Origin: Prevotella sp.
Lineage (GTDB): Bacteria; Bacteroidota; Bacteroidia; Bacteroidales; Bacteroidaceae
Direction of reading: 5' to 3'
DNA: 64,000 nt
Assembly: GCA_021204905.1 (NCBI GenBank)
Contig: JAJPYN010000018.1
Coordinates: forward strand, 1 to 64,000
The translations under genes were made by a program, and so were the position numbers. Below, piece after piece: positions 28,780 through 53,177 of the stretch. The notes under the pieces are model-generated. The model saw only the letters and a list, made by a program, of their open reading frames with translations. It was not told the origin of the DNA and searched no databases. Position 1 is the first letter of the stretch, and every line of letters starts with the position of its first letter.

Positions 28780-29238
28780 GTGCCCATACCCGACACGCCG
28801 CTCAACCAAGTACGCTTCTTCGACAAATGGACCCACCTGGCCATGTACGCCGCGCTCGTGCTCGTCATCGTCCTCGAAAACGCAATTAGGCAAAAGAAAA
28901 AAGGGGGCTTGAATGAAAAGGAAAATGATAGTTCAAAGTGCTTAAATGAAAAGCAAAATAATAGTTCAAACTATTTAAACGTACCCGACAACGAAGGCTG
29001 CTCCTGCCGGGCGCAAAGGCTGAGCAAGCATCATAGTAGCAACCAAGATGAACTCAAAACAATCCTCCTGACGCTCGCGACAGCATGCGCCATGGGAGGC
29101 CTCATCGAACTGGCGCAAGCCTACCTCACCGCCGGCATTCGCTCGGGCGACTGGCTCGACTTCGCCGCCAACGCCGCCGGTGCTGCCTTAGGCGCCATCA
29201 TCGCCTTCCCCCTCGCGCGGCGAATCACCACTCTTTAA
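28780..29238 (+). CDS. VanZ-like membrane protein with an AT-rich hydrophilic insert; true start probably upstream
   Basis: PDTPLNQVRFFDKWTHLAMYAALVLVIVLE and LIELAQAYL...SGDWLDFAANAAGAALGAI are VanZ-like; frame is open upstream through another TM segment. Confidence 0.75.
   Translation: MPIPDTPLNQVRFFDKWTHLAMYAALVLVIVLENAIRQKKKGGLNEKENDSSKCLNEKQNNSSNYLNVPDNEGCSCRAQRLSKHHSSNQDELKTILLTLATACAMGGLIELAQAYLTAGIRSGDWLDFAANAAGAALGAIIAFPLARRITTL
28891..29051 (+). repeat. AT-rich islet A, with two ~33-bp imperfect tandem units and terminal motif AGTAGCAACCAAGATGA
   Basis: Direct repeat TTGAATGAAAAGGAAAATGATAGTTCAAAG/TTAAATGAAAAGCAAAATAATAGTTCAAAC; terminal motif at 29035-29051. Confidence 0.55.
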
Positions 29239-32856: not shown

Positions 32857-33787
32857 ATGAAGGCTGATGTTAAGGTGCTGCTCGCGGCCGTATTGGTGTT
32901 CGTAGGGCTCGCGGCAGTGTTCGTGCTTGTGGATAAAGGCTCGAAGACAAATGTGAAAGAGAATTTTAAGGCTAAAACAAATGCCGGGTATGATGAAAAT
33001 GAATATGGCGAAAACGGGCTCGGCGAGGATGTTGAAACGTACCAAACAACTAAGGCTGGAGAAAACTTTGCGCAGGGCGGAGACGAAGGATTAGTAGCGA
33101 CTAAGATAATCCCGTTCGACCCGAACACTTGCTCCGAAGAGCAGTTGCGCGCCGCCGGCCTGTCCGACTATTCCGTGCGCGCCACCCTCAAGTACCGCGC
33201 CCGCGGCGGAGTGTATTCCTCGCCCGAAGACTTCGCGCGCGTGCCCGGCCTGACGCAAGGCCTTTACAAACGCCTCAAACCTTACATCCGCATCGCCGAC
33301 GATTTCCGCCCCGCTTCGGAGCTTGTTGCCGCGAAGGGCAATAAATACAAATCAGGCGATAGGGGGGGGTGAGACAAATTATCCTAAAAAAATAGAGGCC
33401 GGCGAGCGCATCTCACTCAACGATGCCGACAGCCTCGCCCTCCGCCGCGTGCCCGGCATCGGCCCGTATTACGCCGCGAAGATCATCGACCTGCGCAACC
33501 GCTACGGCGGCTTCGTCAGCCTCGACCAACTCGCCGACATCCGCGGCCTCGACGAGGAATGCTTTCAATATTTCTTCATCGCCGACGGCGGCATAACAAA
33601 AATCAACATCAACCGCGCCGAGTTCGAGCGCCTGAGCGCCCACCCGTACATCGGTTACCGCCGCGCGCGCAAGATTATGGACTACCGCCGCTTGAAAGGC
33701 AAGATCACGTCGCTCCAACAGCTGTCCTTGCTCGAAGGGTTCAGCGACAAGGAGCGCGCCCGCCTCGAGCCTTACATCGAGTATTAG
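32857..33787 (+). pseudogene. ComEA-like helix-hairpin-helix DNA-binding protein split by a G8 tract
   Basis: ORF 32857-33372 (one TM, one HhH region) stops just after G8. The ORF in the next frame continues with RISLNDADSLALRRVPGIGPYYAAKIIDLRNRYGGF... to 33787. Deleting one G joins them. Confidence 0.8.
32935..33109 (+). repeat. AT-rich islet B with terminal motif AGTAGCGACTAAGATAA
   Basis: Low-GC in-frame hydrophilic segment; motif at 33093-33109. Confidence 0.45.
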
Positions 33788-52424: not shown

Positions 52425-52590
52425 TTGCGGTTTAATGTTAGTTTGAAATGAAATAATGCTTCGATGAAAATGAAATATCGTTCGAATTAATGTTAGTGAT
52501 GCGGGGTTGGACTGTTGACTTCGCAGGCGACACTTGTTAAAACGCTGGGTATCAATTAGTTAAGCAGAATTACAGTAGCAACTAAGATAA
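52425..52590 (+). repeat. AT-rich islet C (intergenic) with terminal motif AGTAGCAACTAAGATAA
   Basis: AT-rich GATGAAAATGAAATATCGTTCGAA-type segments; motif at 52574-52590. Confidence 0.45.
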
Positions 52591-52613
52591 ACTTTTTCTT
52601 TTCCGAACTTCGT

Positions 52614-53177
52614 TCACCCTTGAGCCCCGAGCGCGGCAAGGACGTTCTCCGGAGCGAGCGTCCCGGCAGGCTGCCCCGCGGCGAGGCGGCGGCGGATCTC
52701 CGTCGAACTGACATCATAGAGCGGCACGTCGAGCAGCGTTACGCCTTTCGGCAGGGTCGTCGCGTCGATCTCGCAGCCGCGGCGCGGGTAGATGACAATC
52801 TCGTGGCGGGCGATGATCTCGCGGCTGTTGCGCCAGCGCGCGAAGTCGAGCCAGTTGTCCGCGCCGATGAGCAGGATGAACGTGTCTTGCGGCCGGGTCA
52901 GCGACAACTGTTGCAGCGTGCGCCACGTGTACGACGGTTGCGGCAAATGAAATTCGCAGTCGCTGCACACCATGCCCTTCTCGCCGCGCAACGCCTCGCG
53001 CACCATCCTCAGCCGCAGCTCATCGTCGAGCAGGTCGCCGCGCTTTTTCAGGGGGTTGTGGGGCGAGACGACGAACCATACCTCCTCGATCGCGGTCTGC
53101 TCCAGCGCCCGCCGCGCGATGGCGATGTGGCCTTTGTGTATCGGGTTGAACGACCCTCCGAAGATGCCGATTATCAT
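52614..53177 (-). CDS. nadD: Nicotinate-nucleotide adenylyltransferase
   Basis: MIIGIFGGSFNPIHKGHIAIARRAL; DVSSTEIRRRL. Confidence 0.95.
   Translation of the reverse strand: MIIGIFGGSFNPIHKGHIAIARRALEQTAIEEVWFVVSPHNPLKKRGDLLDDELRLRMVREALRGEKGMVCSDCEFHLPQPSYTWRTLQQLSLTRPQDTFILLIGADNWLDFARWRNSREIIARHEIVIYPRRGCEIDATTLPKGVTLLDVPLYDVSSTEIRRRLAAGQPAGTLAPENVLAALGAQG

Follow-up and report, generated by a model that had tools for sequence, protein, structure and literature searches.

Rickettsia provides the best-known cases of small repeats that enter proteins in frame, and the question raised by the present locus is whether an A+T-rich islet inside a VanZ-like gene belongs to an element of this kind. 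The islet lies in an ORF at 28780..29238 on the + strand of the window, that is, the whole stretch of 64,000 nucleotides that was analysed (C14:1-64000 of a genome of 1,964,786 bases, or 1.96 Mb, in 19 contigs). An earlier note had described it as a hydrophilic insertion ending in a 17-mer with close copies at two other loci, and the 17-mers were found at all three places. The ORF matched the Pfam VanZ family (PF04892) weakly, with a score of 23.1 bits that is under the curated cut-off, and it aligned along its full length with VanZ-like proteins of relatives that do not carry the hydrophilic stretch. The VanZ-like proteins of 12 relatives aligned to either side of the islet, and ~48 of its residues were missing from them. 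Therefore, the reading of an insert within the ORF holds, and the hydrophilic stretch is not a conserved part of the VanZ family.

Dispersal and host range of the repeat

We searched the whole genome for the 17-mer and compared the counts with those of reversed controls. When up to 2 mismatches were allowed, AGTAGCNACYAAGATRA matched at 110 places and its reversed form at 3; AGTAGCNACTAAGATAA had 71 exact matches, and its reversed form 0. The motif is thus far more frequent than expected by chance, and a chance origin was rejected, as the controls yield 0-3 matches. A profile built from sequence only (R1) was then run on this genome and on other species. It returned ~150 matches at E <=1 in the genome itself, 139 of them at E <=1e-4, so that the family comprises ~140 copies by profile count.

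No sign of the repeat was detected in the related species tested. The search for exact AGTAGCNACTAAGATAA covered 35 further species of the genus plus 24 of the order and gave no match, R1 run on 99 other species of the genus stayed at chance level (best E 8e-4 per genome), and in two relatives a k-mer survey over 400 kb revealed no equivalent element. The exact core also occurred in 6 viral contigs and 21 other genome stretches, as single matches around which R1 aligned just at the core, the 5' box being absent; a phage or horizontal source was rejected on these grounds. Our literature search yielded no Bacteroidales repeat of comparable description. As far as these searches reach, the repeat family is lineage-specific and restricted to its own genome among the species tested.

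The distribution within the genome was examined over 864 kb, with genes and intergenic regions called by a simple ORF caller. In this region, 47 of 68 sites were intergenic, while intergenic DNA makes up 7% of the bases, and gaps between convergent genes held 45% of the intergenic sites as against 23% of the intergenic bases. Relative to the genes beside it, the element pointed both ways (in tandem gaps, 7 co and 9 anti), both orientations of the element were equally frequent, and inverted pairs occurred (L030, L048 and L049). These three pairs are related, measure 118 bp from outer core to outer core and resemble one palindromic subfamily. Copies occurred just ~once per 13 kb and were randomly spaced (CV 0.97), and the contigs carried 1.8-10.4 merged copies per 100 kb, a moderate difference (chi-square p 0.005). 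GC skew was too weak to use for a test of replication-strand polarity.

Box architecture and the copies in the window

To reveal the anatomy of the element, the flanks of ~90 copies were anchored on the core. Information content was restricted to about -61..+44 around it. The unit measures ~80-105 bp and is made of the core plus other boxes. In order, it comprises a 5' box (TTKAAACGnAnnnRACA) whose start lies 57-62 bases ahead of the core, then a variable spacer, then GnATTAy and the core AGTAGCRACTAAGATAA, followed by a 3' module. In the 864 kb survey, the most widely shared core was AGTAGCRACTAAGA, whose continuations vary (TAA, CCTTCGC, TTC, ACTTC) and which also has a palindromic form, TAGTAGCAACTACTA. 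The 3' module is exchangeable; it often reads AACTTTTT...AAACTCCGCTCGC and frequently ends in CTCCGCTCGC.

The 5' box by itself had 58 exact occurrences in the genome, and the control had 0. Of 42 exact 5' boxes, ascertained independently of the core, 36 were accompanied by the 14-nt core with <=1 mismatch, and the equal-length spacers in this set had a mean identity of just 41%. The boxes are strongly conserved relative to the spacers. When a position weight matrix of box plus core was scanned over the 864 kb, the score distribution was bimodal, with 61 sites above 26 bits, none at 10-26 bits and 0 in the control, and intact cores greatly outnumbered those with one mismatch. Decayed copies are thus essentially missing, indicating either that the boxes are maintained or that the copies are young and the boxes alone are needed for spread. 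At one locus (L150, G000:C11:22381), 36 unrelated bases split the core. Elsewhere in the window, positions 642-749 hold a 22-bp tandem array of TCTTATCCGCTAAGACCTACTG in 4.6 copies; CTAAGACCT within it resembles one core continuation, and the array may be a degenerate core array.

In the VanZ-like ORF, R1 recovered a full unit at 28971..29079 on the + strand (63.8 bits, E 1.8e-17 per genome). The 17-mer is the core of a larger element, and the conserved unit extends well beyond these last 17 bases of the islet. The 5' box assigned by the family consensus, TTTAAACGTACCCGACA, lies at 28974..28990 (+) and the core, AGTAGCAACCAAGATGA, at 29035..29051 (+), where a T-to-C change avoids an in-frame TAA, as had been proposed. 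Used as a core, AGTAGCAACC was found in only two sense ORFs, VanZ and LigA, and in one degenerate array unit; both ORFs use the frame in which a T would create a TAA, and both carry the T-to-C change. The two 33-bp direct repeats of the islet proved to be a tandem repeat with a period of 33 and 2.2 copies (TRF; 28908..28979, +), A+T-rich and running into the 5' box.

The second copy in the window, at 33029..33134 (+; R1 60.9 bits), has its box at 33032-33048 and its core at 33093-33109 (+). The intergenic setting does not apply to this copy, which is in frame (VETYQTTKAG...LVATKII, the core reading VATKII) in a helix-hairpin-helix protein at 32857..33372 (+; HHH_3, PF12836, E 2.3e-9), just upstream of the domain. 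The third, at 52512..52617 (+; R1 53.3 bits), is intergenic, with a variant 5' box TTGACTTCGCAGGCGACA, the core at 52574-52590 and the 3' module AACTTTTT, all on the + strand.

Insertion, overlay and copying

Further in-frame copies were located in tails, linkers or loops of DNA ligase LigA, an FtsE-like ABC ATPase, a pseudouridine synthase, IF-2, ribosomal protein L17, a DNA/RNA endonuclease and RsmH. The last of these is a partial overlay, in that the core there falls on a conserved stretch preceding PSxxE. Unexpectedly, three copies lie in conserved domains without net insertion, namely in HemW (C9:175467, sense; R1 E 1.4e-5 per genome), CysK (C7:155545, antisense; 1.3e-6) and alpha-2-macroglobulin, A2M (C7:214660, antisense; 1.8e-10). 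When HemW was aligned with 19 relatives, the core interval was gapless in 19/19, a few relatives differing slightly in length near the 5' box or downstream of the core, and the (A/T)G[YF]EHYEISNF conserved in relatives was changed to ATKTFEHYEISNF. CysK was gapless across 51 residues in close relatives, with VAVEP changed to VATEP. In A2M, F-LP..GLTG became FILVATVNTG; the alignment was gapless over the core, and length variation was confined to a loop (<=~4 residues in close relatives). In all three proteins, conserved residues were replaced by those that the core encodes. The spacer is native protein sequence in each of them, so the boxes alone were imposed there. It follows from the overlays that selection or drive acts on the boxes themselves. 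A purely insertional element of the Rickettsia-palindrome kind does not account for these copies, at least three in number, which occupy conserved protein domains without insertion. These native-spacer copies separate the recognition sequence from hitch-hiking sequence.

Elsewhere, whole units have been copied. Several pairs of copies were 88-94% identical over 86-107 bp with unrelated flanks, and the near-identical pairs had sharp ends, one at about -60 and the other at +18 or +44, which indicates copying of entire units. The capacity for tandem growth was also substantiated: extra 5' boxes were present upstream of 23/90 copies and in 0/90 control stretches, and tandem repeats touched the interval -150..-50 in 26/90 copies, as against 0-5 beyond ~400 bases. 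The 33-bp repeat in VanZ exemplifies such tandem expansion next to the element. Core units themselves are tandemly repeated in L025 and at C7:59941; the neighbours of the tandem core arrays were housekeeping-like genes, with no candidate enzyme among them. Thus, the description of a dispersed and expandable repeat tolerated inside ORFs was correct as far as it went, and neither of the two checks named in the note refuted it, but it is not a full account of a multi-box unit of ~105 bp.

Origin and spread of the repeat family

Rickettsia palindromic elements are non-autonomous, lineage-specific elements of ~105-150 bp that occur between genes and in frame in unrelated conserved proteins, and they fold into long stem-loops and carry terminal inverted repeats (PMC2229807, PMC10969869). 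The present element resembles them in size, non-autonomy, lineage restriction and in-frame entry into proteins, as in the VanZ insert; it differs in having no stem-loop or inverted ends, in its boxes with a variable spacer and in its codon overlay in some genes. As it has no palindrome, we do not file it as a member of that group. It shares with GTAG-tagged REPs and their RAYT transposases (PMC3733652) a GTAG in the core, high copy number, a preference for convergent gaps, some intragenic copies and one Y1 gene in the genome, but it is far longer, has no hairpin beside the tag (by RNAalifold or single-copy folding), and the Y1 gene is flanked by another repeat. Terminal inverted repeats, which characterise MITEs, are lacking: the end TTGAAACG is not complementary to AAGATAA or CTCCGCTCGC. 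BOX elements are modular small interspersed repeats with a variable number of inner boxes. The present element is likewise a modular small interspersed repeat, whereas its sequence and host differ from those of the BOX elements of Streptococcus pneumoniae (PMC3049150) and it has no RNA structure. In-frame entry into proteins is now seen in a Bacteroidales-like genome, with a clear box architecture; gene content, genome sizes and a G+C range of ~39-57% tentatively suggest a Prevotella-like lineage of Bacteroidales.

The explanation that we favour, at a probability of about one half, is a lineage-specific, non-autonomous small interspersed repeat with boxes recognised by a putative trans-acting protein. 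The ~140 repeats would have no coding capacity of their own, and the boxes would serve as the recognition sequence of this putative DNA-binding or recombining protein. New copies would arise mainly by copying of the 80-105 bp unit into permissive DNA, that is, gaps between convergent genes and disordered protein tails and loops, and within genes only copies compatible with the reading frame would survive. Rewriting at the level of the boxes would also take place, boxes being imposed on existing codons without insertion. Spread would proceed by trans-mobilisation or gene conversion, and both the protein and the choice between transposition and gene conversion are inferred. Support for a non-autonomous small repeat comes from the VanZ insert and from the copying of whole units; against it, the native spacers and gapless cores in CysK, A2M and HemW are unexplained by whole-unit copying. 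It is tentatively conceivable that a genome-wide multi-box motif writes itself over conserved genes without insertion, at the cost of near-invariant residues, and is copied as a whole unit elsewhere, and we know of no driven motif of this sort in Bacteroidales. If this overlay reading is true, it offers a direct route to the question of how a nucleotide motif can override protein conservation, and to its reader protein.

DNA uptake sequences are species-specific motifs in which intact copies exceed near-matches and which occur on both strands of conserved coding sequence and in inverted pairs. The main rival supposes a driven motif of this type, like those of Neisseria or Pasteurellaceae, for which, for example, biased uptake together with recombination would convert near-matches in place, even against protein conservation. 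The species-specific element does lie in place in HemW, CysK and A2M, with residues changed and no gaps over the core, its intact cores far exceed those with one mismatch, and its equally frequent orientations and inverted pairs fit as well. However, it is much longer than known uptake sequences and has several boxes, it is much sparser and randomly spaced where dense and fairly even coverage is typical of them, the matrix scan gave no intermediates, and the copied spacers in some pairs and the VanZ insert reflect unit copying; we consider a driven motif rather doubtful. By the logic of matS and parS, the boxes might instead be host-maintained binding sites of a putative chromosome-organising or global DNA-binding protein, selected after duplication. 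Conserved boxes with spacers near saturation, bimodal scores, tandem extra boxes and sites in conserved genes are consistent with this, but random spacing, only moderate density differences among contigs and absence from all other species of the genus tested make it unlikely. A plain new family of the Rickettsia-palindrome or MITE type, with every copy an insertion, would account for the size, the in-frame intragenic copies, the intergenic majority and the VanZ insertion; without palindrome, consensus structure or inverted ends, and with three gapless overlays, it seems very unlikely. Finally, terminator-like hairpins in a few copies (L056, L071, L077) could point to a structured RNA or intrinsic terminator family. 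This is extremely improbable and was largely refuted: RNAalifold predicted 0 pairs on 68 copies, confirming that no long palindrome is present, single copies had no excess folding stability (mean z -0.38 vs -0.32 and -0.18 in flanks), Rfam gave no match at element positions, no structure covaried, and gene orientation was mixed.

Additional searches revealed no mobilising enzyme linked to the repeat family. No target-site duplication was found, the relatives available for comparison being just ~60% identical in CysK. There was no match to RVT_1 reverse transcriptase in the genome, and a retro-mechanism was rejected for this reason. The assembly is 93% complete, so an enzyme gene may be missing from it. 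The only Y1 transposase gene (Y1_Tnp; L337:1492-1932, G000:C17:99152) is flanked by a second, different, REP-like repeat and by GCGTGCCGATAGGTACGC-type hairpins, and it probably represents, together with that flanking repeat, the REP system of the genome. In three copies of the element (L133, L134 and G000:C10:11902, in L328), this second repeat (TCGTGCAAACGAGAGCAATCAAGTTTACTTGTTTTGCCGAGTGCAGCCGATGATGAC...) interrupts the core at almost identical positions, and a similar sequence splits the 5' box in L020 and L059. The TCGTGCAAACGAGAGCAATCAAGTTTACTTGTTTTGCCGAGTGCAGCCGATGATGAC repeat also makes 66-bp tandem arrays in the relative G010.
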